64,000 nucleotides of DNA. It comes from Collimonas sp. OK242. Lineage in GTDB: Bacteria > Pseudomonadota > Gammaproteobacteria > Burkholderiales > Burkholderiaceae_D. The notes beneath the pieces were generated by a model. The model did not search any database. It had not been told where the DNA came from and was given only the letters and a program-made list of their open reading frames with translations. A program made the position numbers and the translations under genes. The stretch covers positions 186,001 to 250,000 of the forward strand of contig NZ_FNOR01000006.1 of assembly GCF_900107095.1 (NCBI RefSeq). The letters are read 5' to 3'. Shown here piece after piece: positions 18,694-34,679 of this stretch (within the stretch, counting starts at the first letter, position 1; each line of letters opens with the position of its first letter).

Positions 18694-20166
18694 ATGCCTG
18701 TTTTCAAGCGACAGCAACTTTATATCGGCGGCCGCCGGGTCGATGCCAGCGGCAGCGATACTTTTCAAACCGTCAATCCTGCCAATGGCGAAGTGCTGGC
18801 CGAAGTCCAGCGCGCCACCAAGGCCGATGTGGATCTTGCGGTCGCCAGTGCACAGCAAGGCCAGCGTGAATGGGCGGCCCAAAGCGCCATGCAGCGCTCG
18901 CGCGTGTTGCGCCGCGCGGTAGCGATCCTGCGTGAGCGCAATGACGAACTGGCCGAGCTGGAAACCTTGGACACCGGCAAGGCTTTGTCAGAAACCCGCG
19001 CCGTCGATATTGTCACCGGCGCCGACGTCCTGGAGTATTACGCCGGCCTGGTGCCGTCGCTCGAGGGTACGCAAATCCCCTTGCGCGAAAGTTCTTTCGT
19101 CTATACCCGCCGCGAGCCGCTGGGCGTGGTGGCCGGCATCGGCGCCTGGAATTATCCGATCCAGATCGCCTTGTGGAAATCCGCGCCGGCGCTGGCTGCA
19201 GGCAATGCGATGATTTTCAAGCCTAGCGAAATGACGCCGTTGAGCGCGCTCAGGCTGGCCGAAATCTATACCGAGGCTGGCTTGCCGGATGGCGTATTCA
19301 ATGTGCTGACCGGCAGTGGCCGCGAAGTCGGCACCTGGCTCACCGAACATGCCGGCATAGCAAAAATATCGTTTACCGGCGGCACCGCCACCGGCAAGAA
19401 AGTGATGGCCAGCGCATCCAGTTCGACTCTCAAGGAAGTGACCATGGAACTGGGCGGGAAGTCGCCGTTGATTGTGTTTGCCGACGCCGATCTGGAGCGC
19501 GCCGCCGATGTCGCCGTGATGGCCAATTTCTACAGCTCGGGCCAGGTCTGTACCAACGGCACCCGGGTGTTTGTACATAGTTCGATCAAGGCAGCGTTCG
19601 AAGCCAAGGTGCTGGAACGGGTAGCGCGGATCCGCCTCGGCAATCCGCTCGACGTGCACACAAATTTTGGCCCGCTGGTCAGTTTTTCGCATATGGATAA
19701 CGTGCTGTCGTATATCGAATCCGGCCGTGCCGAAGGTGCGCGCCTGCTGATTGGCGGCCAACGCGAAGTAGGCGGCGCGTATGCCAACGGTGCGTATGTG
19801 CAGCCAACCGTGTTCACCGACTGCCGTGACGATATGAAGATCGTCCGCGAAGAGATTTTCGGCCCGGTGATGAGCATTCTCTCCTTTGACGAAGAGGATG
19901 AAGTGATACGCCGCGCGAACGACAGCGAGTATGGTTTGGCTGCCGGCCTGATGACAGAGAACCTGAGCCGTGCGCACCGCGTCATCCATCAACTGGAAGC
20001 GGGCATCTGCTGGATTAATACCTGGGGCGAATCGGCCGCGGAAATGCCGGTCGGCGGTTACAAGCAATCCGGCGTCGGCCGTGAAAACGGCTTGACCACG
20101 CTGGAACACTACACCCGCATCAAATCGATTCAGGTGGAGCTGGGCGCTTATACCTCGGTGTTCTGA
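18694..20166 (+). CDS. betB: betaine-aldehyde dehydrogenase BetB
   Basis: NAD(P)-dependent oxidation of betaine aldehyde to glycine betaine, the second step of osmoprotectant synthesis from choline. The 490-residue aldehyde-dehydrogenase fold has the Asn-containing [10 protein letters not shown], the catalytic Glu region [12 protein letters not shown], the nucleophile Cys in [13 protein letters not shown] and the C-terminal [13 protein letters not shown] typical of BetB. The start at ATG 18694 follows GAGGAG; upstream in-frame codons to 18652 lack support. Confidence 0.95.
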
Positions 20167-20240
20167 ACGCGGTTTTTTAGCGCTACCACCTGCGTCTCAC
20201 AGCGATGCCGCCTGGCCGGCATCGGCAAGGAAGGATCGTC

Positions 20241-21911
20241 ATGCAGCAAGCAAAAGAATACGACTACATCATCATTGGCGCCGGTTCGGCCGGCAATGTC
20301 CTGGCGACGCGATTGACTGAAGATGCCGGCACCAGCGTGCTGTTGCTGGAGGCGGGCGGGCCGGACTATCGCCTGGATTTCCGTACCCAGATGCCGGCGG
20401 CGCTGGCGTTTCCATTACAAGGGCGGCGCTATAACTGGGCCTATGAAACCGATCCGGAGCCGCACATGAACGGCCGCCGCATGGAGTGTGGCCGCGGCAA
20501 GGGTTTGGGCGGTTCGTCGCTGATCAACGGCATGTGCTACATCCGCGGCAATGCGCTGGATTACGACGGCTGGGCGCAACGGGAAGGGCTGGAAAACTGG
20601 TCTTACCTGGATTGCCTGCCATACTTCAAGAAAGCCGAAACCCGCGACATCGGCGGCAATGATTATCACGGCGGCGACGGTCCGGTCAGCGTCACCACGC
20701 CGAAGAGCGGCAACAACGAGCTCTACCATGCGATGGTGGAGGCCGGAGTGCAAGCAGGTTATCCGCGCACCGACGACCTCAACGGTTATCAGCAAGAAGG
20801 TTTTGGCCCGATGGACCGCACCACGACGCCGCAAGGCCGGCGCGCCAGTACGGCGCGCGGGTATCTGGACCAGGCGCGGGCGCGGCCTAACCTGACCATC
20901 GTCACGCATGCCTTGACGGACCGTATACTTTTTTCCGGCAAGCGCGCTGTTGGTGTCGCCTATTTGCACAATGACCGGCCGCAATCGGCGCAAGCCAGGC
21001 GCGAAGTGCTGCTCTGCTCAGGTGCGATCGCCTCGCCGCAAATCCTGCAGCGCTCCGGCGTCGGTCCGGCTGCACTGCTGCGTGAACACGATATTCCGGT
21101 GGTGCTGGATCTGCCTGGCGTCGGCGCCAATTTGCAGGATCATCTGGAGATCTACCAGCAATACGAATGCAAGCAGCCGGTTTCGCTGGCGCCGGCATTG
21201 AAGCCATGGAATCAGCCGCAAATCGGCGCTGAATGGTTGTTGATGGGGAGCGGCATCGGCGCCAGCAATCAGTTTGAAGCCGGCGGTTTCATCCGTAGCG
21301 ATGACAGCTTTGAATGGCCGAATATCCAGTATCACTTCTTGCCGGTAGCGATCAATTACAACGGCAGCAATCCGATCAAGGTGCATAGCTTCCAGGCGCA
21401 TATGGGATCGATGCGTTCACCGAGCCGCGGCCGTATCCATTTGCGCTCGAAAGATCCGCGCCAGCATCCGAGCATCTTGTTCAACTACATGTCGACCGAG
21501 CAGGATTGGCAGGAATTCCGCAACGGTATCCGGATTACGCGCGACATCGTCGCGCAGCAGGTGCTGTCGGCCTACGCCGGGCGCGAGATTTCACCTGGCG
21601 TTCAGGTGCAGACGGATGCCGAGCTGGATGCCTTCGTGCGCCAGCACGCCGAGACCGCCTTCCATCCATCCTGTTCCAACGCCATGGGATACGATGCGAT
21701 GGCGGTGGTGGACAATGAGGGGCGAGTGCATGGTTTGCAAGGCCTGCGTGTAGTCGACGCTTCGATCATGCCGCTGATCACCACCGGCAACCTGAATGCG
21801 CCGACCATCATGATCGCCGAAAAAATCGCCGATTGCATCCGCGGACGGCAACCGTTGCCACGCGTGGAAGTGCCGTATTACGTCGCTGGCGGCAAGCCGG
21901 CGCGGCAATAA
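20241..21911 (+). CDS. betA: choline dehydrogenase BetA
   Basis: Membrane-associated FAD enzyme oxidising choline to betaine aldehyde (and partly on to betaine). A GMC oxidoreductase of 556 residues: FAD-binding [19 protein letters not shown] signature [18 protein letters not shown], and the active-site His in HPSCSNAMG near the C-terminus. ATG 20241 has AAGGAAGG upstream. Completes the betIBA operon; no BetT or ABC choline transporter is next to it. Confidence 0.95.
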
Positions 21912-21965
21912 GCGTACCGGCTCAGAGGCTTTCGTCTGTGTGCGTGGCGCTGGTCGAGCTAGTAC

Positions 21966-23225
21966 TCAACGTTTCTGCAGTACGCCAATCACCAGCATGG
22001 TAATTGCGTAAGCGATGCCAAGCAGGCAGACCGCAGTCCAGCCGCCCTTGACCCAGGCCAGCGCGGCGCTGGCCGCACCGAGCGCGCCGCCGACAAAAAA
22101 AATGCCGACGAATAAACCGTTCAAACGCCCGCGCGCTTCCGGCTGCAACAGGTTGATGGCGCGCCGGCCCAAAGTCTGATCGGTGGTGACGCCGGCATCC
22201 AGGCCGATCGCGGCGAGCACCAGCAGGCCGACCGCCAGCAGCGGATGGGCGGCAATCGTAAACCCGCCCCAGCCGGCGCCGGCAATCCCGGACAGCAGCA
22301 ATGCCGCGATCATCAGCAGATGTGCGGCCAGGCTGGCGGGCCGGGTCCAGCCATGGTCGCCGACACGGCCGGCGAGCGGCGCCGCAACGGCTCCGGCGGC
22401 GCCCGCCAGCGCAAACAGGGCGATCTGGCGCTGGTTCAGATTGAAAGGCGGCTGTGTCAAAAGCAGCGCAACCGCGGTCCAGAACAGGCTGAAGGTAGCC
22501 ATCGCCAATGCGGCGGTCAGTGCGCGCCGGCGCAGGACCGGCTGGCTCAGCAGCAAATTCCACAGGGATCTGATCAAGGCCAGGTAAGACAGGCCGGCAA
22601 CCGGTTGCCGGGTTGGCAGCGTGCGGCTCAAAGTGGCCGCCACCACTGCTACCGACGCGGTCAGCACCAGATACAGCAAACGCCAGCCGCCGAGAGCGAC
22701 CAGCAAGCTGGCCAGCGGGCGCGATAGCAGAATGCCCAGCATCAGGCCGCTCATCACATTGCCGACCACTCTGCCGCGATGCGCTTCGCAAGCCAGCAGG
22801 GCGGCCAGCGGCACCATGATCTGGATCGCGCTGGAGGCGCTGCCCGCCAGGAAGATCGCCAGCAGGAATAGCCAGCCGGAAGTCGACACGGTCGCAGCCG
22901 CCAAGGCCAGCGCGCAGCAAGCCAGCAGGCGCACGATAAGCTGGCGGTTTTCCAGCAGGTCGGCCAGCGGCACCAGCAGGATCAGGCCGGCGGCATAACC
23001 CAGTTGCGGCAGCATGGCGATCATACCGCTCACACGGTAATCCAGGCCGAGCGCAGCCGCGATCGGGGCGATCAGAGTCTGGGTTGCAAATAGATTAATG
23101 ACCGTGATGCCGACTGCGGCAGCAAACAATATTTGCAACGCGGCCGGGATGCCGTCATTTGCAGCATGCGCGGTGATTGCCTGCGCGGCAGGGTAGGCGG
23201 CATTGGGGGGTAAGGGTGCGTTCAT
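21966..23225 (-). CDS. MFS transporter (DHA1-like efflux family)
   Basis: A 419-residue major-facilitator protein with about 12 hydrophobic helices. The loop 2-3 motif region reads PLADLLENRQLI, and helix 4-5 has GNVMSGLMLGILLSRPLAS. It resembles drug-efflux-type permeases of the AraJ/YdhP kind. It is divergent from the LysR gene at 23366 with 140 bp between starts, so that regulator probably controls it. The substrate is unknown. Confidence 0.87.
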   Translation of the reverse strand: MNAPLPPNAAYPAAQAITAHAANDGIPAALQILFAAAVGITVINLFATQTLIAPIAAALGLDYRVSGMIAMLPQLGYAAGLILLVPLADLLENRQLIVRLLACCALALAAATVSTSGWLFLLAIFLAGSASSAIQIMVPLAALLACEAHRGRVVGNVMSGLMLGILLSRPLASLLVALGGWRLLYLVLTASVAVVAATLSRTLPTRQPVAGLSYLALIRSLWNLLLSQPVLRRRALTAALAMATFSLFWTAVALLLTQPPFNLNQRQIALFALAGAAGAVAAPLAGRVGDHGWTRPASLAAHLLMIAALLLSGIAGAGWGGFTIAAHPLLAVGLLVLAAIGLDAGVTTDQTLGRRAINLLQPEARGRLNGLFVGIFFVGGALGAASAALAWVKGGWTAVCLLGIAYAITMLVIGVLQKR

Positions 23226-23365
23226 GACTATTCTTCGCGTGACACGGCTTGCAGCGGGAGCGGCGTAGTCCTATCCCTGGCAAACGGTTTTCAATGCGGT
23301 GATTGTGCATCGACGATCTTTATGCTACAAGTGAATTATTATCATAACTATTATGCGAGTTTGTT

Positions 23366-24277
23366 GTGAATACTCATGATATCGAAGCTTTCGTGGCCGT
23401 GGTCGAGACCGGTTCGATTGTTGCAGCGGCAACCCGTCTGCATCTGACTCAGCCGGGCATCAGCCGGCGTGTCCAAAGCCTGGAAGACAGGTTGGGAGTG
23501 GCCCTGCTGGAACGCCAGTCGAAACCGCTGAAACCTACCGCTGCCGGCCGCGAGGTTTATCAACGTGGCCGCCGTGTGCTGGGATCGGTTGCGGATTTGC
23601 TGGCCGGCGTAGAACCCGGTTCGGAGGCGAGCGGTGAATTTCGTCTGGGGGTGGCGCCGTTTCTGGCGGAATTGGCCCTGACTCACCCCATTGATCGCTT
23701 ACGCACCGAGTTCGTCAAGCTGACCTTGCGCATCACAACCGGCTGGTCGCCGACCCTGCTGACTCTGTTGGAAAGCAACGCGATCGATGCCGCTGCGGTG
23801 GTTTTGCCGGACGACGTGATGCCGCCCAATACGCTGACGACACATTTGCTTAGCCACCAGCTGCCGGTGATCGTGGCGCAGCGTGAAGCGGGTTTGAGCG
23901 AGGGCCGCTTGTCGCTGCAGGAACTGGCATCGCAAGCCTGGATCTTGAACCAGGATGGTTGCGGCATCCGCCGCTCGATCCGGCATACGCTGGACGCAGC
24001 GCGTTTGCCGGTCGATGTTGCGGTCGAAACTTTCGGCACCGAACTGCAATTGTCGCTGGTGGCGCGCGGCATCGGCATCGGCATGGTCATGCCTGGCGCC
24101 TTGGCGCGCAGTGCATTTCGCGCTCAGTTGCGGGTGTTGCAGGTTCCGGAATTCAAGGCCGGCGTGAATACCTGGCTGGTGCATGCCCGCGCGCCGGGAC
24201 GACTGGCGGCGCCGATCGAGCGTTTGCGCCGGGATATGAGCGAGATGCTGGATGCGGAGGAACGCCTGTTGATTTGA
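23366..24277 (+). CDS. LysR-family transcriptional regulator
   Basis: A 303-residue LysR protein. The N-terminal helix-turn-helix includes FVAVVETGSIVAAATRLHLT and GISRRVQSLEDRLGVALLERQ, cut here; the effector domain runs from about residue 88. The only in-frame start is GTG 23366. Divergent from the MFS transporter. The intergenic AT-rich stretch near 23325-23360 (ATTATTATCATAACTATTAT) could hold the LysR site. Confidence 0.88.
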   Translation: MNTHDIEAFVAVVETGSIVAAATRLHLTQPGISRRVQSLEDRLGVALLERQSKPLKPTAAGREVYQRGRRVLGSVADLLAGVEPGSEASGEFRLGVAPFLAELALTHPIDRLRTEFVKLTLRITTGWSPTLLTLLESNAIDAAAVVLPDDVMPPNTLTTHLLSHQLPVIVAQREAGLSEGRLSLQELASQAWILNQDGCGIRRSIRHTLDAARLPVDVAVETFGTELQLSLVARGIGIGMVMPGALARSAFRAQLRVLQVPEFKAGVNTWLVHARAPGRLAAPIERLRRDMSEMLDAEERLLI

Positions 24278-24394
24278 GCCGGCGGGTGCGATACAGCGCC
24301 GGCATAAAAACGCGACCATCAGTTATATAGGGTGAAAACACTACGATCACGATCACGATGATGAAGACGATGAATGATTTTTGCGGCGCTTGCG

Positions 24395-24859
24395 CTACCT
24401 TATCCAGCGCTTCGATAGAAAATGGTCGAAAGACCAATTCCCGGCGCCACGGCATAGCAGCACCAGCAGCATCGCAGCCCATTGGATATGCGTGGGCCAC
24501 GCTAGCGGATAAACAAATATCTCAATGACCATCGTCATACCCAGCAGTATCAGAGCCACGGGCCTGGTCGCCAGTCCCAGCACCAGCAGCACCGGCGCAG
24601 TCAACTCGACCGACACCGCCATGTAGGCCGCAATTTCCGGTGGCAGGAGCGGCAATTTATATTCTTCCCGGAATAGTTCGAGAGCAGTGTCCCAATTCGC
24701 CAGTTTGGTCATCGCTGAGTTCCAGAATATCGTCGCAACCGCGATCCGCAACGGAATGGCGAGGAAGGTATAAGGTACACGCTCGAACCACTGCATAAGA
24801 CGTATCAAGCGGTTTTCATTGCGGCGCTGCGGCGTAGCCGATTGCGATAAGGGCGTCAT
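24395..24859 (-). CDS. DoxX-family membrane protein of the bufferin operon (BufD-like)
   Basis: A 154-residue inner-membrane protein with four helices. DoxX marks are PLRIAVATIFWNSAMTKLANW, cut here, LPPEIAAYMAVSVELTAPVLLVLG and THIQWAAMLLVLL. The open frame extends to 25225, but AGGAG lies 8-10 nt before ATG 24859. DoxX genes regularly close operons of the DUF2282-DUF692-DUF2063 type; the role is thought to be membrane-associated support of metal handling or redox, without a proven reaction. Last gene of the operon, 29 bp after bufC. Confidence 0.85.
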   Translation of the reverse strand: MTPLSQSATPQRRNENRLIRLMQWFERVPYTFLAIPLRIAVATIFWNSAMTKLANWDTALELFREEYKLPLLPPEIAAYMAVSVELTAPVLLVLGLATRPVALILLGMTMVIEIFVYPLAWPTHIQWAAMLLVLLCRGAGNWSFDHFLSKRWIR

Positions 24860-24888
24860 GACCGAATTCTCCTGAATGTTAACAGGCC

Positions 24889-25665
24889 CTAGAACGTCGT
24901 GTCTGCCGGACCGACGTCCACAAAGCATCCGCGTACCAGATGCGAGGCCAGCACGGTTTGCGCATCGGTACAGGGCGCCTCCCTCAGCGCAGCATGCAAT
25001 GGCCGCCCGGAAAACAGCGCCGCCGTAAAGCGCCATTGGCATTGGCTCAGGCGCGCCACTTCGACACCGCATTCCGTTCGGTGCAGGAGCAACCAGGCCG
25101 GACCATCTGCTAGATCGATCGCCGCCATGGCATGATCGTCGCGCTCCAGTACTGCATGCCAGATGGCGTCCGCCGGAAAATCGCAGCGCAGCAGTTTTGC
25201 CGCAGGGTGAGGTGCAAACCGCCAATGCGCCAGCTCAGCTTTATCTAATTGCGCAAGCCGAGCTATCTTGAGCGGCTGGGCGTCCGCTGCATGCAAAACG
25301 ATATTCACTTGCCATTCAAGGCGGGCTACATCGGCGAGATAGGGCAACGATGCGGCCTGCGGAAGCTGCGCCAGGAATTCAGGAAAATCTGCACCATATT
25401 CATCCAGCAATGCACTGTGTGGCGGGCCTTCGGCGGCGAACAGGCGCGCCACACCTTCGAAGAATTCCGCACCCACCAGATAGCGGACGGCCGGGAAAGA
25501 CAGGGTCAGTGCCGTTGTAAGCACACTGGTGCAGGTATTGCGGTAAATGTCGAGCCGCGCGCTACCGCCCAAACCGTCGGCGATCACATAGGCAGACAGG
25601 TCGCCATCCATATGATGCCGCATGCTTTGCTCAATCGTGCGTTGCAGTTCAAGCAGCGTTGGCAT
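24889..25665 (-). CDS. bufC: DUF2063 protein, partner of the MNIO enzyme (BufC-like)
   Basis: A 258-residue protein. The N-terminal DUF2063 region has ARLDIYRNTCTSVLTTAL, LSFPAVRYLVGAEFF and PYLADVARLEW. In bufferin and related systems this protein is required, with the DUF692 oxygenase, for modifying the precursor peptide, probably by recruiting it. Its 5' end overlaps the bufB 3' end by 17 bp, indicating tight coupling. Older annotations call such proteins DNA-binding, which the context does not support. Confidence 0.85.
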   Translation of the reverse strand: MPTLLELQRTIEQSMRHHMDGDLSAYVIADGLGGSARLDIYRNTCTSVLTTALTLSFPAVRYLVGAEFFEGVARLFAAEGPPHSALLDEYGADFPEFLAQLPQAASLPYLADVARLEWQVNIVLHAADAQPLKIARLAQLDKAELAHWRFAPHPAAKLLRCDFPADAIWHAVLERDDHAMAAIDLADGPAWLLLHRTECGVEVARLSQCQWRFTAALFSGRPLHAALREAPCTDAQTVLASHLVRGCFVDVGPADTTF

Positions 25666-26539
25666 GGATGGGCTCCTGTCGCTGTTGCTCGAGAGCCGCT
25701 TCGGCGGTCGCGGCTTCCTCCATCAATATTTCAAGCGCCGGCACTTCAGTATCCCATTCAATCAAGGTGGGAACCGGCCCGAAACGTTCAAGCGCTTCCT
25801 GATAGAGCGCCCAGACTGCGGGAGCTACGCGCGAGCCGTGGTCATCGATGCGTAGCGTTTGTCCGTTCTCTAGCTGCCGGATGCTATGGCCGGCCAGATG
25901 GATTTCGCCGATCGCTGCTGGCGGCAGAGCGCGCAGATAGGTAATAGGATCCCAGCCGTGATTGCTGGCGCTGACGTAGATGTTGTTGACGTCACATAAG
26001 ATTCCGCAGCCGGTACGCTGGACGACTTGCGCGAGGAATTCCCATTCCGGGATAGTCGAGTGGCGGAAACGCAGATAGGTCGAAGGATTTTCGACCAGGA
26101 TGCGTCGCTTGAGGTGAGCCTGCACCTGATCGACATGCCGGCAAACAACTTGCAATGCTTCTTCGGTCATCGGCAGCGGCAGCAGATCGGCCAGATACCT
26201 GCCGCCGACGGCGCTCCAGGACAGATGCTCCGAAACCAGGCCAGGTTCTATCCGTTCGGCCACACCCCGCACGCGAGCCAGGTGTGCGCCGTCAAGGCCG
26301 TCGGCACTGCCAAGGGACAAACCGACGCCATGCAGCGAAATCGGGTAGTCGCGACGAATTTTATCCAGGTACTGTGGCGCGCTGCCGCCGCCCATGTAAT
26401 TTTCGGTGTGCACCTCGAACCAGGCGACATCGGGCGTCGCATCAACAACGGCTTGATGATGACGGTAGCGCAGCCCGACACCCGCTTGCGCGGGGATCGG
26501 GCCGGGCGCATCTTGCGGCCTGACAACAGAAGTATGCAT
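25649..26539 (-). CDS. bufB: DUF692 multinuclear iron-dependent oxidase (MNIO), BufB-like
   Basis: A 296-residue TIM-barrel enzyme of the MNIO family (DUF692), which uses two or three iron ions to modify cysteines in RiPP precursors. Metal-ligand motifs are all visible: FEVHTENYMG, SLHGVGLSLGS, SEHLSWS, VENPSTYL, DVNNIYVSASNHGWD, EIHLAGH and LIEWD. The frame extends to 26656, but ATG 26539 follows the bufA stop by 14 bp and gives the usual family start. The likely substrate is the Cys-containing BufA encoded directly upstream. Confidence 0.9.
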   Translation of the reverse strand: MHTSVVRPQDAPGPIPAQAGVGLRYRHHQAVVDATPDVAWFEVHTENYMGGGSAPQYLDKIRRDYPISLHGVGLSLGSADGLDGAHLARVRGVAERIEPGLVSEHLSWSAVGGRYLADLLPLPMTEEALQVVCRHVDQVQAHLKRRILVENPSTYLRFRHSTIPEWEFLAQVVQRTGCGILCDVNNIYVSASNHGWDPITYLRALPPAAIGEIHLAGHSIRQLENGQTLRIDDHGSRVAPAVWALYQEALERFGPVPTLIEWDTEVPALEILMEEAATAEAALEQQRQEPIHANAA

Positions 26540-26553
26540 ATGCCGGTGCCGCT

Positions 26554-26871
26554 TCAGCTTGCCTGCAACTTGCCGCCCTGAATCTTCGAGCAGTCGCCGG
26601 CCGGCAGCAACACGAAGGACTTCGGATCGCGTGCTTGAGTGGCTTGACCCGCACAAGAATGCGCACCTTCAGCGCAGTCGTTCTTCGAGACCGCATTAAT
26701 GCCGTAACATTTCTCCAGCTTGTTTTTTGCCATTCTCGCCATATTGTCCTTGACGGGCTGTGGCATGGCGCTCATGTCCTTCATGTTCTGGGCCTGTACC
26801 GGCGCTGACATGGCGAGTGCGAGACCGATTGCGGCGGACAGTGTTGACGCTGCCCATGCTTGTTTGCTCAT
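26554..26871 (-). CDS. bufA1: DUF2282 bufferin-type precursor peptide (BufA1-like)
   Basis: A 105-residue exported protein. A signal peptide (residues 1-27, cleavage after VQA) precedes a mature part with four cysteines at 55, 66, 73 and 94 (KCYGINAVSKNDC, HSCAGQA, GDCSK). This is the DUF2282 layout. Family members are metal-binding RiPPs whose Cys residues are modified by the neighbouring MNIO and which buffer excess copper in the periplasm. TTGAGGAGAATG-type ribosome-binding sequence precedes the start. First gene of bufABCD; a sigma-F-like promoter lies 51 bp upstream. Confidence 0.9.
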   Translation of the reverse strand: MSKQAWAASTLSAAIGLALAMSAPVQAQNMKDMSAMPQPVKDNMARMAKNKLEKCYGINAVSKNDCAEGAHSCAGQATQARDPKSFVLLPAGDCSKIQGGKLQAS

Positions 26872-26921
26872 TTTTCATTCTCCTCAAGTTGAGGTCGCAG
26901 GGTCGCGGCCTTGCTGATAAA

Positions 26922-26947
26922 TTCGCCTGGAGTCCGCCAAAGGTTAC
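26922..26947 (-). promoter_or_regulatory. sigma-F-type promoter of the bufferin operon
   Basis: On the minus strand GTAACC (26947-26942) and CGAA (26925-26922) are separated by exactly 16 nt. This matches the GTAACC-N16-CGAA type of promoter described for the ECF sigma factor SigF of Caulobacter, which drives a bufferin operon there. The cognate sigma gene is divergent at 27006. No such element is seen on the plus strand for sigF itself. Confidence 0.75.
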
Positions 26948-27005
26948 GCCGCATAAAAAATTTATTTTTCGAGACAGAATCCTCCCTGGAGCGCAAAATT
27001 TGCCT

Positions 27006-27665
27006 ATGTCATCCAAAACACGTCGCCCCAGCCCATCGCTGAATCTCGTACAGAGTCCTCAGGATTCGGGCGCGCCGGGCAATTCTGCCGCAGCATCGGA
27101 TACCCGCTCCGACGGCACACCGGATTGGTCCATCTATATGGCTCGGGCGCAAGACGGCGACGGCGAGGCTTACCGACGCCTGCTCGAAGAGATTGTTCCT
27201 TATCTTCGGGCGCTTGCCATCCGCCGCATCGGCAATCGCAGCGATGCCGAGGATACTGTGCAAGATATTCTGCTGACGATACACACAGTGCGGCACACGT
27301 ACGACCCGACTCGTCCGTTCGGCCCGTGGCTGGTTGCCATCGCCAGCCGGCGCATCATTGACGGCCTACGGCGACAGGGGCGCCATAACGCACACGAAGC
27401 ACCGCTCGATCAAGAATATGAAACCTTGTCGACCCATGAGGCGAATCTCCAAGAAGAGGCAACAGATGCCGGCATGCTGCGTGCGGCCGTTGCGCGCCTG
27501 CCGGTCGGACAACGAAATGCGATACAAATGCTGAAACTGGAAGAAATGTCATTGAAGGAAGCTGCCGCGTCTAGCGGCATGTCGGTCGCTGCGCTGAAAA
27601 CTGCGACTCATCGCGCCTTGAAGAGCCTGCGCAAGATGATTGACAAACGAGGTGGCAAACCATGA
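27006..27665 (+). CDS. sigF: ECF sigma factor (SigF-like)
   Basis: A 219-residue sigma-70-family ECF factor. Region 2 is at about residues 55-120 (AYRRLLEEIVPYLRALAIRR, then DAEDTVQDILLTIHTVRHTYD, cut here), and region 4 at about 155-215 (LPVGQRNAIQMLKLEEMSLKEAA). An unstructured N-terminal extension of about 40 residues is present. The next gene, a DUF1109 anti-sigma factor, overlaps it by 4 bp, the signature of the SigF/NrsF group. It should activate bufABCD in response to metal stress sensed by the membrane partner. The start at ATG 27006 lacks a clear ribosome-binding site. Confidence 0.88.
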   Translation: MSSKTRRPSPSLNLVQSPQDSGAPGNSAAASDTRSDGTPDWSIYMARAQDGDGEAYRRLLEEIVPYLRALAIRRIGNRSDAEDTVQDILLTIHTVRHTYDPTRPFGPWLVAIASRRIIDGLRRQGRHNAHEAPLDQEYETLSTHEANLQEEATDAGMLRAAVARLPVGQRNAIQMLKLEEMSLKEAAASSGMSVAALKTATHRALKSLRKMIDKRGGKP

Positions 27666-28318
27666 AATCGACCGCCAATCTGATTAACTCATTAGTCACA
27701 GATGTCAAGCCGGTGCGGCGCCTGCGATCGCCAATGGTGCGTGCGGCGTGCTGGTTATTGTTTGCCGCATTGATGCTGGTGCTGGTTGCTGTCGGACATG
27801 GTGTGCGGCCGGATCTGATGCTCAAGCTGCGTCAGCCTGTTTTTATCACCGGCGTCGCTGCAGCTCTTCTGACCGCTGTTCTTGCTGCGATGGCGTCGTT
27901 TATTGTCAGCATTCCCGGACTGTCACGGCGCTGGCTGTTATTACCGATGCCTGCTCTCGCGGTGTGGGTTTCGACGATTGGCTACGGATGCCTGACTAAC
28001 TGGGTCAGTATTGGCCCGGACGGCCTGTCTCTTGGAGAGACTGCGCGCTGCTTCGTGACGTTAGTGGTGACCAGTATCCCTTTGTCGCTGGCGATGCTCA
28101 TCATGCTGCGTTACGTAGCGCGTTTATCTCCAGCACCGGTAGTGATGACAGGCAGTCTCGCGGTCGCAGCGATGACGGCGGTCGCCTTGTCCCTGTTCCA
28201 TCCGCTCGATGCAACGATCATGATTCTGATGTCGAACTTCGGCGTGACGGCTCTGCTCTTGGCTCTCGGCAACAGATACGGACAACGGCTGTTTGCATGG
28301 GTAGCGTCACGCGGATGA
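27662..28318 (+). CDS. nrsF: DUF1109 (NrsF-like) membrane anti-sigma factor
   Basis: A 218-residue inner-membrane protein with six predicted helices starting at about residue 28, after a short cytoplasmic N-terminus. The C-terminal HPLDATIMILMSNFG segment is characteristic of DUF1109. NrsF proteins hold SigF inactive at the membrane until metal stress; in Caulobacter two conserved cysteines are needed. Here Cys112 (GYGCLTN) and Cys128 (ARCFVT) are candidates. ATGA overlap with sigF implies translational coupling. Confidence 0.87.
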   Translation: MKSTANLINSLVTDVKPVRRLRSPMVRAACWLLFAALMLVLVAVGHGVRPDLMLKLRQPVFITGVAAALLTAVLAAMASFIVSIPGLSRRWLLLPMPALAVWVSTIGYGCLTNWVSIGPDGLSLGETARCFVTLVVTSIPLSLAMLIMLRYVARLSPAPVVMTGSLAVAAMTAVALSLFHPLDATIMILMSNFGVTALLLALGNRYGQRLFAWVASRG

Positions 28319-28355
28319 GGCGGTTCGAGACTCCCGGAAAGACGTATGCCGGATA

Positions 28356-28571
28356 CTATTTACAACACCCATGCTGGGCTTGAATCGGCGGACATTTCAC
28401 CGAGCCGAAGGAGCAAAACACACAGCAATCACCCGGATTGGCTCGTAAAAGCGCCTTGCAGTTACTGCATTCGTAATAGAACTGGCAAGCGTCAGTAGGC
28501 ATGCTTTCTAGCTTGGCAACGCCGCATTGCGGGCAAGTCAGAACAGATTCAAGGACGATAGCGTTGGGCAT
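28356..28571 (-). CDS. GDCCVxC-domain small protein
   Basis: A 71-residue cysteine-rich protein. It has an N-terminal zinc-ribbon-like pair (LTCPQCGVAKLESMP), a YYECSNCKALLR pair and the signature GDCCVFCSFGSVKCPP. NCBI calls the family GDCCVxC domain-containing (seleno)protein; some homologues carry selenocysteine, this one uses cysteine (the start of the signature is GDCC). It occurs with merT/merP genes and may be a mercury chaperone or redox protein. Six bp after merP; converges on nrsF. Confidence 0.85.
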   Translation of the reverse strand: MPNAIVLESVLTCPQCGVAKLESMPTDACQFYYECSNCKALLRANPGDCCVFCSFGSVKCPPIQAQHGCCK

Positions 28572-28577
28572 GGCAGG

Positions 28578-28853
28578 TCACTTGTGCAAAGTGGAGGGAT
28601 AGCCGGCGTTCGCGGTGGCCTTGGTCAACGCTTCAGCCTGAGCTTTGTCTGGGTCATAAGTAACGATCGCTGTCTTCTTATTGAAGTCGACCGTGACGGC
28701 ACTCACGCCAGTCACCTTCTCCAGCGATTTTTTGACAGTAATTGGGCACAGTTCGCACGTCATGTTTTTGACCTCGAGCGTGACAGTTTTCGAGGCGGCC
28801 GCCAGCGTCATGACAGGCAACGCGGCGAGCATGGCAATCAGCAATTTACGCAT
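28578..28853 (-). CDS. merP: periplasmic mercury-binding protein MerP
   Basis: A 91-residue exported heavy-metal-associated domain. The signal peptide (about residues 1-20, ending LAAA) is followed by NMTCELCPITVKKSLEKV with the Hg-binding Cys33 and Cys36. MerP carries Hg(II) to MerT. It lies 12 bp downstream of merT in the same operon. The motif has Glu-Leu between the cysteines where Ala-Ala is usual. Confidence 0.93.
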   Translation of the reverse strand: MRKLLIAMLAALPVMTLAAASKTVTLEVKNMTCELCPITVKKSLEKVTGVSAVTVDFNKKTAIVTYDPDKAQAEALTKATANAGYPSTLHK

Positions 28854-28865
28854 GGGGAATTCCTT

Positions 28866-29213
28866 TCAGTAGAACAGCGGTGCCAGCGAGGGTACGGCCA
28901 GCAGGCCGAGTAACAGGACAGCGACAATCCAGAATATCAGCCGCTGCCGCTTAAGTGCGCGCGGATCGGCGCAGGATGTGCCTGGTGCGCAGACCTGCGG
29001 CACTAGGTAGAGCTTGCGAAATGCAAGGCCGAGAAACAGCAGCGTGAACCCAATGAAGATGGGCCGGTACGGTGCCATCGCCGTCAGATTGCCTACCCAC
29101 GTACCGCCGATGCCGAGCGCCAGCAAGATCAGCGGCCCGACGCAACACACCGAAGCACCGATGGCAGCCAATACGCTCGCAATCAACGAGCCTTTTTCCG
29201 GGAATTGCGTCAT
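28866..29213 (-). CDS. merT: mercuric ion transporter MerT
   Basis: A 115-residue inner-membrane Hg(II) importer with three helices. The CysCys pair in the first helix (residues 23-24, IGASVCCVGPLILLALG) and the cytoplasmic-loop cysteines 75 and 81 (VCAPGTSC) are intact. First gene of merT-merP-GDCCVxC, divergent from merR. No mercuric reductase gene follows, which is unusual for an importing system. Confidence 0.94.
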   Translation of the reverse strand: MTQFPEKGSLIASVLAAIGASVCCVGPLILLALGIGGTWVGNLTAMAPYRPIFIGFTLLFLGLAFRKLYLVPQVCAPGTSCADPRALKRQRLIFWIVAVLLLGLLAVPSLAPLFY

Positions 29214-29246
29214 GTTTGTCGCCTTGAACTTGCTTATCCTAGTATT

Positions 29247-29278
29247 ACTCTACACTCTGTACCTAGGTACGGAATCAA
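29247..29278 (-). promoter_or_regulatory. mer promoter/operator
   Basis: On the minus strand TTGATT (29278-29273) and TAGAGT (29252-29247) are 20 bp apart, and the spacer contains the palindrome GTACCTAGGTAC (29259-29270). This matches MerR operators, where the extended spacer is corrected by Hg-bound MerR. It lies between the divergent merT and merR. Confidence 0.85.
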
Positions 29279-29288
29279 GGAAAATATG

Positions 29289-29699
29289 ATGGCGACGGAA
29301 CTGACTATCGGCAAGCTGGCGGAAGCTGCCGGGGTGAATGTCGAAACGATCCGCTACTACCAGCGGCGCGGGTTGCTGGACGAACCAGCCAAGCCGCTGG
29401 GCGGCCATCGGCGCTATCCGGCGGACATGTCTAAACGGGTTCGTTTCATCAAACGGGCGCAGGCGCTCGGTTTCACGTTGTCCGAAGTTGGCGGGCTGCT
29501 CAGCTTGGATGAGGCACATGCCTGTACTGACACGCGGGCACTCGCCGCCCGCAAGCTGATATTGATCGATCAGAAGATGGCAGACCTTGCTGTCATGCGG
29601 CAAATGTTGGGGGGATTAATGCAGCAGTGCGTCGGCGACGGCCACGCAGTCTGCCCTATTATTGATGCGCTGACGCGGGAAGAAAATTCGGCTGAATGA
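29289..29699 (+). CDS. merR: mercury-responsive regulator MerR
   Basis: A 136-residue MerR protein. The helix-turn-helix and wing contain ETIRYYQRRGLL and GGHRRYPADMSKRVRFIKRA, cut here. The three Hg-binding cysteines are at 79, 114 and 122 (HACTD, QQCVGDGHAVC), with spacing as in Tn21 MerR (82, 117, 126). AAGGAA at 29277-29282 suits ATG 29289 better than the adjacent ATG at 29286. Represses and activates the divergent merTP operon. Confidence 0.94.
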   Translation: MATELTIGKLAEAAGVNVETIRYYQRRGLLDEPAKPLGGHRRYPADMSKRVRFIKRAQALGFTLSEVGGLLSLDEAHACTDTRALAARKLILIDQKMADLAVMRQMLGGLMQQCVGDGHAVCPIIDALTREENSAE

Positions 29700-29777
29700 C
29701 ACGTCAAGGTTAGCGCTGAAAGGGATCTGAACCCCTGCGACTGGACTAGGCCGGGGGGAAGAATTTGATACGTTGCC

Positions 29778-29796
29778 GTGTTTCAATTCGAAACAC
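29778..29796. promoter_or_regulatory. perfect 7-bp dyad upstream of the glycine-zipper gene
   Basis: GTGTTTC AATTC GAAACAC forms a perfect inverted repeat, and TTGATAC-like sequences flank it (TTTGATACG before, TTGATACAC after). It lies about 80 bp before the gene at 29874 and could be an operator. No regulator is recognised. Confidence 0.5.
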
Positions 29797-29873
29797 TTGA
29801 TACACGATCCGGATAGGTTGGCGGCCGATACGTTCGTACAATCAAATCGTTGTCAACGTCGAAGGAGAATCAA

Positions 29874-30455
29874 ATGGAAGCCAACCAAACAGCCACTCGC
29901 TTGCACCCCTTGGTCGCCGGCGCTGCCGCATCCCTGATCCTGGTGAGCTTGCTTGGCGTCGCAGCGATGACTGGCTTTCTTCCTAGTTCCCACGGCAGCG
30001 TGGCTGGAACCCAGGCTCCGGAGGCAACTTCCGCCGCGCAGCAGCCGATGGCAAATGCCGCTGCGCCGATAACGCCGACAACCGCAGCACCGGTATTGGT
30101 GCAGACCGCGAACGGCTATCAATATATGCAAGCGGCTGCCTCGCCCGCAGTGGCGGGATATCAGGTTGAACCGCCCCTCACCGCGCCCAGACAAAAACCG
30201 ATAGTGCATCATGTTTATCGCAATCATGCAGCAACCTATGCGCAGGCTGGGCCGGCGCCGCAATACCTGGCGCCGGTCGAGCAAGCTCGCCCGACTGCAC
30301 AGCTAAGCCCGTTGGGGATAGCTACCGGCGCGGTAATCGGCGGCCTGCTGGGTCATCAGGTTGGCGGTGGCAACGGCCGTACGCTGGCGACAGTAGCGGG
30401 CGTGGTTGGCGGTGGATATTTGGGTAATACAGTCGCCAGAAATTACGGCTACTAA
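29874..30455 (+). CDS. glycine-zipper 2TM domain protein
   Basis: A 193-residue envelope protein. An N-terminal membrane anchor (about residues 12-33, AGAAASLILVSLLGVAAM) is followed by an Ala/Pro/Gln-rich low-complexity spacer and, from about residue 148, a glycine-zipper region (GIATGAVIGGLLGHQVGGGNG, cut here) ending GGYLGNTVARNYGY. This resembles the rickettsial 17-kDa antigen/SlyB family, thought to stabilise the outer envelope. AAGGAG at 29862-29867 supports ATG 29874. Confidence 0.87.
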   Translation: MEANQTATRLHPLVAGAAASLILVSLLGVAAMTGFLPSSHGSVAGTQAPEATSAAQQPMANAAAPITPTTAAPVLVQTANGYQYMQAAASPAVAGYQVEPPLTAPRQKPIVHHVYRNHAATYAQAGPAPQYLAPVEQARPTAQLSPLGIATGAVIGGLLGHQVGGGNGRTLATVAGVVGGGYLGNTVARNYGY

Positions 30456-30935
30456 CTCATTGATGCTCGCCACTACCAAAAGGGCAAGAGCTGTAACTCA
30501 AAAAAGGATTTGCTCGCCCGTGTCGGTGAGCCGATTTACGACGAGAGATTAGATCGCGCTCTTGAGTGTCCTGTGCATTCGTGGCTCCGCGCTTTGCCGG
30601 ATTGCGGATGCGTCGCTTCGGGATTATTGATACTTACGTAAATCATGACAACCATTTTGAATTTCAAACGTTATCGACTGCACGCAACAAGCTCAAGAGC
30701 GCTCAAAAACGCCCTTCGATTATCGCCGCCTGCTGGGCGCAGGCTACCTTGTGGTGATGTCATGAATTATGAAAGTCTCAATAATTGGCCCATACCATGC
30801 CACAGACGCGACACACTGAATTCCGAGCGCCAATGCAAAGACTAAGAACAGTTTTTTCGTTTCCGACACTCAGGATTGATCTGATTTCGACATAGGTGGC
30901 CAAAGCTGTCACTCGGCAATCCCTGCGCGTTGAAA
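30456..30935. other. 480-bp region without an intact gene, left edge of the island
   Basis: Holds the first 54-bp IS630-like end (30622-30675). The bases before it (about 30490-30620) contain an open frame reading ...LLARVGEPIYDERLDRALE... that could be a gene remnant, but I cannot assign it. After the repeat the sequence becomes AT-rich and shows no gene. Confidence 0.5.
30622..30675 (+). repeat. left-end remnant of an IS630-like element (copy 1)
   Basis: 54 bp matching 33368-33421 with two mismatches, in the same orientation. It includes the element end and the first ten codons of the transposase (MTTILNFKRY versus MTTILDFKRY). After this the match stops, so only the 5' tip of the element remains. 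Together with copy 2 it brackets the AT-rich island. Confidence 0.85.
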
Positions 30936-32063
30936 TTAGTGTAGGTTTCTCTTAAACTTAGTTTCAGCCTCCGCCACCGTCTCTTGGATGTTTTTATTGG
31001 CAGGATTTTGCGCAGCATAAAGGCCAATGTTATTTTGCGCCACACGAAGGGCTCCGAATTGATCAACGCGCTCGGCCCATCGCTCCCCATCCCCCGACGA
31101 AATCAAAAATGAAATAATTTTTCTGGGGTCAGTTGTCGCGGTGTTTAACTCGTTTAATAAATATTTATCATAATTTGCAGTATTTCCAGAACTAGCAAGC
31201 AGTGCAGTCGCTTGTAACCATGCCGCATAGGCAACTGCGTCCGTCAAACCAAATTGATTCTGGTTTTCTGAAAATTGTGGTTGGTGTTCAGCGAGTATCG
31301 CTTGAACAGTGCCGTAGGTTTCCGGTGAAAATTGTTTTAAATCGTCTGGTTTTTGTATGGAATATGTTAAAACGTCTACGGAGTACTGATTCCCGCCTAA
31401 CTTAATTTTGTTGAGGATGTCGCTTTGCGCATCTTTAGGCGCTTGTGATGCCAAAAACGCGAGTTGGCCATAGTATTCTTCGTCACCAAGATATCCCGCA
31501 TCTTTTACATCTGATAGAACACGCAGAGAGTCAGGTAAATAACCGAAATTAGAATATGCTAGTGCCGCCGCACGCCCGATTCCTTTGTTTCCAGAGTTCA
31601 TGAGGTCTTTCAACTCAGTAAGAACTTCGCTATTCAAGCCAAGCGCATCATCTCGTGAGTGAAATCTCGAAAGCATTTCCGTTAGGGTAATTCTCTCTTC
31701 GTTAGTGGTTTTTGATTTGAGAAGCTCTTGTACCCGGCGAAAGTTTTCAATGGTACGCGGCAGCCCCAATGCATCGATCGTTTCAAGCAATGCTCGACCT
31801 TCTACGCCACTTCCAATATATTTTTTCTGATACAGAGAAAACAACCTTTTTGCCTCAACTTCTTTGGGCTTGTTTGGATCTGGTTTTTCTGATTCAGAAA
31901 AAGAGAAGTCTATCGCCTCAACTGCCCGAGGAAGACTGTTCATCGTCTGTGTTGGCGAAGGGGTTAGGAAGAACCCCTCCCGGACGGCGTTCGTAGATGG
32001 TAATGCATAGACCAAGAGAACTAAACATACCAGGCCGCCGATTATCCATAAGACTTTTTTCAT
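30936..32063 (-). CDS. membrane-anchored hypothetical protein
   Basis: About 375 residues from ATG 32063. An N-terminal anchor helix (KKVLWIIGGLVCLVLLVYAL) places the rest in the periplasm. The remainder is strongly helical and partly HEAT- or TPR-like (ELKDLMNSGNKGIGRAAALA; FRRVQELLKSKTTNEERITL), with no catalytic motif. Its start overlaps the stop of the upstream peptidase-like gene in an ATGA, so the two are translationally coupled. Base composition is lower in GC than neighbours. I do not recognise the family; a partner or inhibitor of the upstream protein is a guess. Confidence 0.75.
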   Translation of the reverse strand: MKKVLWIIGGLVCLVLLVYALPSTNAVREGFFLTPSPTQTMNSLPRAVEAIDFSFSESEKPDPNKPKEVEAKRLFSLYQKKYIGSGVEGRALLETIDALGLPRTIENFRRVQELLKSKTTNEERITLTEMLSRFHSRDDALGLNSEVLTELKDLMNSGNKGIGRAAALAYSNFGYLPDSLRVLSDVKDAGYLGDEEYYGQLAFLASQAPKDAQSDILNKIKLGGNQYSVDVLTYSIQKPDDLKQFSPETYGTVQAILAEHQPQFSENQNQFGLTDAVAYAAWLQATALLASSGNTANYDKYLLNELNTATTDPRKIISFLISSGDGERWAERVDQFGALRVAQNNIGLYAAQNPANKNIQETVAEAETKFKRNLH

Positions 32064-32719
32064 GACCAACTATTTAATGTTAGAAAGAGATTTGCAGGAA
32101 ACGCCGTCCAAATATTGAGTAGTCTGGATTGCCATGTCGCGTCGACTGGACGATTTGTTTGATAGTTGTTTCCATAGGGGATTGTCGATGTGTAGACAGA
32201 AAGAATGAAAGTGTCGCATCGATACCTCCCGCGTGTTCGATTCCTGATGCCGTCAGCCGGGTACGCGCGTAAATAACTTGGACTTACCGTATAGTCGGCG
32301 CCGATCAAGTACTGTTGTCTGGCGTATTGCACTAGCGCTATACGTGTACTAACGCTCTGGACGGGTCCTTGAGGTGCAGGAAGAGTACTGGTGCAGCTCG
32401 TATCAAAACAATTGTAGACGGTATAGTTAGGGATCTTAGGAGTCGCAGCGCCCCAATATGTCGTTCTCGATTTGAAGTTGGCGAGGCTGTTATAGTGGAT
32501 AGCATTAGGCCCAGCGGATGGGTCTAGAACTTCCACTACGTTACCACCATCCCACATCCCCACATGTCCGACTACCCCTAGCACGCTGTCCAGATTTCGT
32601 CCCACCACGTCACCTGCTTGTGTTGGGTCAGGGAACGCAGGTGCAGGAGGGCGATTTACGATCATGCCGCCACCATGATGCGCACTTTGAGAATATGCGC
32701 TATGGCAGCTAAGAATCAA
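32060..32719 (-). CDS. secreted cysteine-peptidase-like protein (permuted NlpC/P60-like), 5' end frameshifted
   Basis: 219 codons from an in-frame TTG at 32719, but a better start lies at ATG 32751 with AAGGA 7 nt upstream. Restoring one base in the adjacent T/A homopolymers (32739-32747) gives a proper signal peptide (MLFKNIATLAFLILS...SQS). The mature part has GDVVGRNLD, a His in GHVGMWDGGNVVEVL and a late Cys in RYRCDTFILSVY. His before Cys is the order of circularly permuted NlpC/P60 (YiiX-like) enzymes, suggesting a peptidoglycan or amide hydrolase. The assignment rests on motif order only. AT-rich, coupled to the next gene. Confidence 0.6.
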   Translation of the reverse strand: MILSCHSAYSQSAHHGGGMIVNRPPAPAFPDPTQAGDVVGRNLDSVLGVVGHVGMWDGGNVVEVLDPSAGPNAIHYNSLANFKSRTTYWGAATPKIPNYTVYNCFDTSCTSTLPAPQGPVQSVSTRIALVQYARQQYLIGADYTVSPSYLRAYPADGIRNRTRGRYRCDTFILSVYTSTIPYGNNYQTNRPVDATWQSRLLNIWTAFPANLFLTLNSWS

Positions 32720-32884
32720 AAATGCCAGAGTTGCTATATTTTAAAAAGCATAATATGTTCCTTATATTTAACATTGAAAAACAACGATCTACATTTAGTG
32801 TCAAATAGGCAATAAATTGCTTTTATGATAATGCGTACTTAAGAAGTTCACAACTCCTCTTTCTGGAACAAGACTTGTGCCAGT

Positions 32885-32990
32885 AAACGTGTTAATCGGC
32901 CGGGGCTTCCAGTAGTTCACCGTGCTAAAACGGCTTTACGGTTGGCCGACACGTTTGAGCAAAGGGCGCTCCTGGAGCGCCCCTTTTTAT
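32885..32990 (+). ncRNA. possible structured small RNA or 3' UTR with terminator
   Basis: AAACGTG (32885-32891) and TCGGCC (32896-32901) pair with GGCCGA (32944-32949) and CACGTTT (32950-32956), enclosing a smaller stem-loop. Immediately after, GGGCGCTCC / GGAGCGCCC with five T (to about 32988) makes a strong terminator. No plus-strand gene lies upstream and no clear promoter is visible, so this is only a candidate RNA. Confidence 0.35.
32960..32990 (+). terminator. intrinsic terminator
   Basis: Near-loopless stem AGGGCGCTCC / GGAGCGCCCCT followed by TTTTTATT on the plus strand. On the minus strand it abuts the end of the formyltransferase remnant. Confidence 0.8.
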
Positions 32991-33367
32991 TGTTCTAACC
33001 TCCGTCGTGAGAATGACGGCTCCCAGGTGGCCAGTGCCTCATCTTGACAATGCGATGCCAAGCAACCTAGTGCAGTACGCTCCAGCGACAGCCTGAACAG
33101 CCTTATACCCGTCGGCCCGAGTTCACGCCGCCACAGGCTGGCCTCGGTATCCCCCGGTTGGATAAAACACCAGTCCTGGGCGATCACCGGCCCTGCGTCG
33201 GCCCGCTCATTCATCCAATAGACGCTGCCGCCTGTGACAGGCTCATGCATCCGTATAGCCCAGGCAATGGCGTCCCGGCCGCGATGCAGCGGTAACAGGC
33301 GCAGGTGATAGCCAATCGCGGCCAACCGGGCCTCGTCGGTGATGTAGCAATGGGCGTGGGCGGCAAT
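32987..33367 (-). pseudogene. formyltransferase-family gene, 5' end removed by the IS630-like element
   Basis: The minus-strand frame is open from the element border at 33367: IAAHAHCYITDEARLAAIGY, then LRLLPLHRGRDAIAWAIRM, GGSVYWMNERADAGPVIAQ and a WEPSF C-terminus. This is the second half of a methionyl-tRNA-formyltransferase-like catalytic domain (HxSLLPxHRG and the downstream Asp). The N-terminal half of the domain is missing. Any start codon, such as the one at 33325, would give only a fragment, so it is most likely a dead gene. Confidence 0.75.
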
Positions 33368-33920
33368 GATTATTGATACTTACGTAAATCATGACAACCA
33401 TTTTGGATTTCAAACGCTATCTCTCCAAGGTTGATATTGGAGAGAGTTTGAATGGCACAAAAGCGATTGAGCGATGCCGCCAGAAAGCGGTTAAAGGCTG
33501 GGCGATGTTGCTGGCTGGGAAAGGCTGCGCGGAGGTAGCGTTGGCTGTGGATGTGGATGTGGCTCGGCAGACGGTATACACATGGAAGCGGTTGCTCGAT
33601 GAAGGCGGCATTGAGGCTCTGCGGGAGGTTCCTGAGCGAGGGCGACCAGCCCAGCTTGATGAACAACAGTTGGCGGCTATTCGCGCCACGCTTTTGCAAG
33701 GTCCGACTGAACAAGGATTTGGTACAGAACTGTGGACGCTCAAGCGCGTGGGTGCTGTCATCGAACGCATGCATGGTGTTCGCTTTAGCCAGACGCAGGT
33801 CTGGCGCATCCTTGGCTCTCTGGGCTTTAGCCCGCAAAAGCTGGAAAAGCGGGCTATCGAGCGCAACGAAGATGCCGTGCGCAGCTGGAAACGCCGTACC
33901 TGGCCGACTCTCAAAAAAAA
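33368..33920 (+). mobile_element. truncated IS630-family insertion sequence
   Basis: The element begins with the 54-bp end shared with 30622-30675 and contains the N-terminal part of an IS630-type transposase. Homology ends in an A-run at about 33913-33920, which is also the T-run of the terminator of the downstream DUF1993 gene. The DDE catalytic part and right end are missing. Confidence 0.8.
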
Positions 33921-33969
33921 TGCCCCAATCGAGTGTGAATGGGGCATTTTTTTAGGAAGAATTTTCTGA
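33391..33969 (+). pseudogene. IS630-family transposase, N-terminal part
   Basis: About 175 genuine residues: a helix-turn-helix segment (CRQKAVKGWAMLLAGKGCAE; VARQTVYTWKRLLDEGG), a GRPAQL linker and a winged helix (GFGTELWTLKRVGAVIERMHG, cut here). It ends at WKRRTWPTLKK where full-length proteins continue into the DDE domain starting near FIDESG. The last residues up to 33969 come from the terminator sequence. No transposition activity is expected. Confidence 0.85.
33913..33953 (-). terminator. bidirectional intrinsic terminator
   Basis: Perfect stem AAAAAAATGCCCC / GGGGCATTTTTTT with an 11-13 nt loop. It lies about 105 bp beyond the DUF1993 stop on the minus strand and marks the right edge of the truncated IS element. 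Confidence 0.9.
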
Positions 33970-34057
33970 AATTATTATATTGCGGCTACCCCAGATAACT
34001 GATGGCCGCGTTTTCTTCAAGCAAGGTCAAACCGGTTTGCGGTCAGTTGCGCTGAAT

Positions 34058-34567: not shown

Positions 34568-34679
34568 GAGTGTTCCTTGGTTGGTGTTGCAGAGTGTTCG
34601 GGAAAGGTGGTGTGGCTAAGTGGCGTGATTATAGTGCTTGCTTGAAGAATCCGCTGCCGGCGCCTTATTGCCGTAAACG

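Follow-up and report, generated by a model that had tools for sequence, protein, structure and literature searches.

A 64,000-nucleotide stretch of the Collimonas sp. OK242 genome (contig NZ_FNOR01000006.1, positions 186,001 to 250,000; hereafter the window) carries at positions 24395–28318 what is, judged by its gene families, a Buf1-type bufferin operon with an intact predicted precursor and maturase, next to an extracytoplasmic function (ECF) sigma factor and an anti-sigma factor of the SigF/NrsF type. The module itself is already known, and its sensor, NrsF, is a new variant: one of two conserved cysteines has been lost to histidine and another cysteine has been gained nearby, changes that recur in loci of alpha- and betaproteobacteria. 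We think it fairly probable that the window holds a horizontally acquired Buf1 module under a "type II" NrsF that would sense a thiophilic metal ion or an oxidant.

The bufferin module

The original prediction had described an operon encoding a DUF2282 precursor, a DUF692 oxidase (MNIO), a DUF2063 partner and DoxX, divergent from genes for an ECF sigma factor and a DUF1109 anti-sigma factor. Order, strands and coordinates of the six genes agree with this description, and each has a Pfam match:

24395–24859, minus strand: DoxX-family membrane protein, gigT-like, 154 amino acids (PF07681, 64 bits; HvfX, 59 bits, under the cut-off of 80)
24889–25665, minus strand: DUF2063 partner protein, 258 amino acids (PF09836, 70 bits; HvfC, 43 bits, under the cut-off of 142)
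25649–26539, minus strand: MNIO bufferin maturase bufB, 296 amino acids (NCBIfam NF050167, 388 bits, cut-off 310; PF05114, 358 bits)
26554–26871, minus strand: DUF2282 bufferin precursor bufA, 105 amino acids, four cysteines (PF10048, 74.2 bits, cut-off 22.4)
26922–26947, minus strand: SigF-type promoter word GTAACC-N16-CGAA facing bufA (pattern scan and comparison of loci)
27006–27665, plus strand: ECF sigma factor, SigF/RpoQ-like, 219 amino acids (PF04542 and PF08281, Sigma70_r2/r4_2; TIGR02937, 79 bits, cut-off 42.9)
27662–28318, plus strand: NrsF/DUF1109 anti-sigma factor, type II, 218 amino acids (PF06532, 106 bits, cut-off 26.8; residue comparison, tree and hydropathy)

The genes for the bufferin-type MNIO and its DUF2063 partner are adjacent, the end of the former sharing 17 bases with the latter, and the overlapping sigma factor and nrsF genes are divergent from the bufA operon. 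Genes for DUF2282, NrsF and MNIO proteins each occur once on the contigs of this genome. Precursor and maturase had been claimed to be intact, and the alignments bear this out. The four-cysteine pattern of BufA recurs in relatives; its N-terminus is hydrophobic and ends in SAPVQAQ, read by eye as a candidate Sec signal peptide. The precursor matched no family in NCBIfam. In the MNIO, residues E42, H70, H105, E150, D183, N185, H214, D232, H234 and E261 are the same in all 42 aligned MNIOs and E104 is kept in 41; among these conserved residues are those that we take to hold iron. The solved structure nearest to the MNIO is 3bww (E = 5e-38). A bufA relative from Polaromonas (L045:4555–4862) matches in two frames, an apparent frameshift, its first frame encoding 84 amino acids with three cysteines.

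A variant sensor type of NrsF

The window NrsF has the sensor-type residues C110, C130, H180 and D183. It was aligned with 12 close relatives (13 close rows) and with 13 classical rows, namely those picked up by the close-set profile among 30 classical loci (L009–L038). The second conserved cysteine was found in 13/13 classical rows versus 0/13 close rows, with His180 at this position in the window, whereas the new cysteine C110 was present in all 13 close rows and in none of the classical ones. C130 is shared by all 26 rows and is the sole invariant residue over 82 NrsF of all types; within the close alignment C110, C130, H180 and D183 are all invariant. The nearest named relative is the NrsF of Collimonas antrihumi (89% identical). 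The window protein scores 106 bits against PF06532, and 58 of 68 matches from 195 genomes of the family score 193–248 bits.

A scripted rule assigned 99 distinct NrsF rows to type I (43), type II (35), type III (18; neither second cysteine) or "both" (3; the new cysteine plus a cysteine at or beside the second position). In a tree of 97 rows, from which L006 and L081, both counted among the 35 type II rows, had been dropped, the type III rows form one group (100/100) and all but one of the 43 type I rows another (100/99). Every type II row falls within a 37-row group (92/90, not starred), together with the three "both" rows and a single row, on a long branch, that was scored as type I. The window NrsF lies inside a 20-row set that is entirely type II (99/98, starred). 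A third NrsF group (L052–L070 and L082), whose members come mostly from different families of the same order, has retained the universal cysteine but has neither second cysteine. Several type II loci were reached through similarity to the window NrsF, so all locus counts given here describe a sample; the 43 type I loci all come from the window's family, and of the eight "alpha" type II loci, L091–L093 are assigned to phylum only. Among 74 plasmid records matching this NrsF, of which 30 were listed, 11 were examined, and the listed ones from Burkholderia glumae (35% identical) were left out.

Hydropathy, for the window protein alone and as a 31-row average, gives six hydrophobic segments. In the 31-row average, C110 and C130 lie in the loop 108–132 and H180 and D183 in the loop 177–185. 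Both loops are poor in lysine and arginine and are therefore probably periplasmic, with C130 at the membrane edge. A search for solved relatives of NrsF gave no match at E 1. With a histidine in place of cysteine and a cysteine gained nearby, the protein still has plausible metal ligands, of which C110, C130 and H180 may form one site.

Characterised relatives indicate what these positions can do (statements on published systems, here and below, refer to the parts of the cited papers available to us). Both C131 and C181 matter in Caulobacter NrsF (PMC3511200). In Bradyrhizobium OsrA, the H2O2 response is lost in C179S, and in C129S the sigma factor is no longer held in check, C129 possibly serving to hold it (PMC3420878). 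In searches of an open-licence library we recognised no description of a Cys-to-His NrsF group or of variants without the second cysteine.

If the residue changes were neutral drift, the window would hold an ordinary Cu/Au-responsive gig/bufferin operon, with mer genes adjacent since metal genes cluster on islands. We regard this explanation as rather unlikely, though it has several observations in its favour, which are given with the mer genes below. C110, H180 and D183 recur in alpha- and betaproteobacterial loci that fall in a separate grouping from the C181 type, and such recurrence is unlike drift.

A second alternative, that an oxidant (peroxide or hypochlorite) is the signal through a C110–C130 disulfide and that metal has no part in sensing, appears very improbable to us. 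It would fit the response of NrsF relatives to H2O2 (PMC3420878) and HOCl (PMC8315932), as well as the YedY-like genes near 24 of the 43 wide type I loci of the family (L103 and part of L167–L193). Against it, no YedY-like match was found within window positions 19001–35000, and of 22 sampled betaproteobacterial type II loci L109 is the one that combines YedY-like genes with a lack of bufferin genes, which the other 21 carry. Since bufferin genes are found near 12 of the same 43 type I loci, the latter seem to be split between oxidant and metal outputs.

At one type II locus, from Nitrobacter hamburgensis, a TlpA-like thioredoxin gene (L112:7663–8265) overlaps the end of nrsF, and genes for a copper-binding protein and a copper oxidase follow ~5.5 kb beyond it.

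The promoter word upstream of bufA

GTAACC-N16-CGAA is the SigF promoter word of Caulobacter (PMC3511200), and the BcrS sites of Brucella are likewise of the GTAA/CGAA kind (PMC8315932). Its predicted occurrence in front of the precursor gene was verified (26947–26922, minus strand), with 50 bases between the word and the bufA ATG. The proposed genome scan for further sites did find four others, but the exact pattern is not enriched in the 4.98-Mb genome (five sites, versus 13 for a reversed control pattern). We therefore rejected the word by itself as evidence, and its weight rests on place and conservation. The four other sites overlap open frames of 435–732 codons; because the window site likewise overlaps an open frame, of 304 codons, this test separates little. 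Frames downstream of the sites L005, L003 and L001 have 473, 142 and 102 codons, and no second target is claimed. The window site is the sole one of the five that starts GTAACCTTT.

With a spacer of 14–18 bases, the pattern was found upstream of bufA at 21/21 betaproteobacterial type II bufferin loci, 12/12 wide-flank type I bufferin loci and five of eight other type II bufferin loci, L091 having GTAACT instead. The word starts GTAACCTTT at 20 of the 21 betaproteobacterial type II loci (the exception, L105, has GTAACCTTC) and at none of the 12 type I loci, eight of which have GTAACCGG.

Two further roles for the word were considered and rejected. SigF control of the mer genes was dismissed because the sole GTAAC-type site within window positions 24000–30500 faces bufA; a scan of L039–L050 gave bufA-facing sites and two GTAACG words (L041, L047). 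Autoregulation of sigF was dismissed because 20 of the 21 betaproteobacterial type II loci have no word in the sigF direction, L088 having a looser one with GTAACT. The structure of the bufA leader RNA showed nothing beyond shuffled sequences (z = 0.65).

The mer neighbourhood

A mer module had been predicted to adjoin the operon, and the following features were found there:

28356–28571, minus strand: GDCCVxC small cysteine-rich protein, 71 amino acids (NF041374, 102 bits, cut-off 40)
28578–28853, minus strand: MerP (TIGR02052, 105.5 bits, cut-off 92.55)
28866–29213, minus strand: MerT (PF02411, 125 bits; NCBIfam PRK13751, 128 bits, under the cut-off of 150)
29259–29270, no strand: GTACCTAGGTAC palindrome between merR and merT (seen by eye)
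29286–29699, plus strand: MerR of the Hg(II)-responsive type (TIGR02051, 161 bits, cut-off 151; start codon picked by eye)

The palindrome resembles a mer operator and, on our assumption of what such an operator looks like, was taken on inspection for one of the MerR type; the window mer genes look MerR-controlled. For MerA, the cut-off is 454 bits and the best match in the genome reached 318, so that the mer genes are without their reductase as far as this draft assembly shows (56 contigs, completeness given as 100).

MerT, MerP or GDCCVxC were encoded within 7 kb of nrsF at 14/21 betaproteobacterial type II bufferin loci, compared with 0/12 type I bufferin loci, 0/8 other type II bufferin loci and 0/31 type I loci lacking a complete bufferin pair (Fisher p = 1.6e-4, with related loci treated as independent). 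Locus flanks were mostly 6–7 kb and shorter at some contig ends. Left out of the count were loci shorter than 6.5 kb, the bufferin loci among them being five part-copies of the window (L004, L006, L007, L008, L051), L071, L082, and L015, L021 and L072, which are the same loci as L158, L164 and L091. L087 was omitted as a copy of L040, and L109 stands outside the 21 loci. Weak cases scored as positive are L110 (a GDCCVxC fragment of 21 residues; 13/21 without it), L044 (MerT residues 1–60 only) and L046 (GDCCVxC, 49% identical). Genome G097 (L089), in which GDCCVxC, MerP and MerT lie ~8.3 kb from nrsF, was scored as negative.

The gene arrangements vary. On the minus strand with a divergent merR in the window, the mer genes lie on the plus strand ~115 bp after nrsF in L039, L041 and L047; after DoxX they occur together with merR in L108 and as GDCCVxC alone in L105 and L046, and L115 and L048 hold full merR-T-P-A-B sets. 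This linkage in several arrangements, present at type II and absent at type I bufferin loci, speaks against the explanation by drift. That explanation is favoured by the mer-GDCCVxC cassette also being found away from bufferins: MerT was encoded beside GDCCVxC in 12 of 30 loci (L124–L153), of which only the window's own (L150) shows bufferin or NrsF genes within 2–3 kb, while in the case of another (L139) a type II nrsF is ~8.3 kb away. The cassette is thus a frequent neighbour that is not shown to be part of the module. Also in favour of drift are the cassette's own merR in the window with no SigF-type word nearby, the accessory nature of the segment and the occurrence of NrsF in three of the 12 listed genomes of the genus (see below), and the response of the C. 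metallidurans gig system to Cu and Au (PMC10304878). No mention of GDCCVxC was met in the listed part of a literature search.

A bolder reading of the same neighbourhood takes type II NrsF as a re-specified sensor whose periplasmic Cys2-His(-Asp) site would be tuned to a very soft ion such as Hg(II); the bufferin would then be a mercury buffer working with MerP, MerT and GDCCVxC. We judge this improbable as it stands. If true, it would mean that a bacterium with no recognisable mercuric reductase buffers mercury, through a site built by exchanging a peroxide-signalling cysteine for histidine and gaining a cysteine 20 residues before Cys130.

An accessory segment

The window flanks, up to ~24283 and from ~34048, are colinear in the congeners G153, G948 and G117, which have other DNA of 3.1, 1.6 and 0.33 kb, respectively, between them. 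The bufferin/mer block is thus accessory DNA, in a segment of ~9.8 kb (24283–34048). NrsF was found in three of 12 genomes of the genus, among those listed. In C. antrihumi, a block 87% identical to window positions 24402–28811 and the left flank are on separate contigs of G061. Near the segment edges, sequence comparison revealed an inverted repeat of 27 bp, which is imperfect:

24307–24333, plus strand: left copy
33988–34014, minus strand: right copy

The two copies are 89% alike, and the five congener stretches searched hold no copy. A helix-turn-helix transposase-like fragment at 33391–33969 is presumably IS630-like. A 54-bp near-copy (96%) of its start (33368–33421) lies 2.7 kb upstream at 30622–30675, and the fragment and the near-copy are probably insertion-sequence remnants. 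Two neighbouring genes on the minus strand (30936–32719; 377 and 219 amino acids), also inside the segment, have no Pfam match.

Comparison with known systems

The combination of a bufferin operon with this regulator pair is not new in a betaproteobacterium, as Cupriavidus metallidurans CH34 already has it in gigPABT-rpoQ-rsqA (PMC10304878). There, four-Cys GigP, GigA, the DUF2063-type GigB and the DoxX-like GigT are encoded divergently from ECF sigma and anti-sigma genes, as in the window. The main text of that paper does not contain the word "mercury". An NrsF ortholog of C. metallidurans is reported to have both cysteines (PMC3511200), unlike the window NrsF. Sigma/NrsF genes are also reported as members of Buf1 clusters, whose gene content is like that of the window; the window's separate merR/merT/merP/GDCCVxC genes and type II NrsF were not met in the available parts of that paper, which, with reference to mercury-related fusions to MerC, has already suggested that bufferins have roles with other metals (PMC12452194).

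Caulobacter crescentus sigF-nrsF/CC3254–CC3257 shares the DUF2282, DUF692, DUF2063 and DoxX genes, the promoter word and the NrsF family with the window (PMC3511200). It had been cited as having the same regulator pair, which applies to the SigF word and the NrsF family but not to the sensor: Caulobacter NrsF has C131 and C181, whereas the window protein has C130, the new C110 and a histidine at the second position, and it falls in a separate tree group. Caulobacter also has a second paralogous operon, in contrast to the single DUF2282 and MNIO genes here. Bradyrhizobium EcfF-OsrA is similar in its ECF16-type sigma factor, its DUF1109 anti-sigma factor and the kept equivalent of C129, while C179 has no counterpart cysteine in the window (PMC3420878).

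Proposed mechanism and implications

In the reading that we favour, a thiophilic-metal- or oxidant-responsive bufferin module, type II NrsF would hold the sigma factor at the inner membrane. Cys110 and Cys130 of NrsF, aided by His180 and perhaps also by Asp183 as additional ligands, would detect the signal in the periplasm: an oxidant or a thiophilic metal ion, for which Cu(I) is the likeliest candidate and Hg(II) the next, only slightly less likely. Once released, the sigma factor would read GTAACC-N16-CGAA and transcribe bufA-MNIO-DUF2063-DoxX. MNIO and its partner would then turn the cysteines of BufA into metal-binding heterocycles, and the exported peptide would buffer metal in the periplasm.

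Several points weigh against this mechanism. The pattern scan gave no bufA-facing site at L071 (type I, 3.5 kb) or at L113 and L114 (Rhizobium type II), and the window sigF gene lacks such a promoter word, unlike Caulobacter sigF, which itself has a similar promoter sequence (PMC3511200). For RpoQ no evidence was obtained that it starts gig transcription, which the authors assume (PMC10304878). In the topology, loop 45–64 should be periplasmic by alternation and is not poor in lysine and arginine (2.35), and OsrA C129 was placed in the membrane (PMC3420878). The AlphaFold model of NrsF (13 rows) has a predicted local distance difference test score of 55 and was left unused for the closeness of C110, C130 and H180. 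Still, the earlier suggestion that the metal may differ from copper gains support, because the sensor is different and the linkage to mer genes recurrent.

The DUF1109 anti-sigma family has so far been characterised, in the papers available to us, through a single pair of signalling cysteines. The loss of one of these to histidine and the gain of another nearby, in a conserved group, amount to a natural experiment on the choice of signal, and the question of what NrsF senses becomes directly testable. The type II NrsF group points to metals beyond copper for bufferins.

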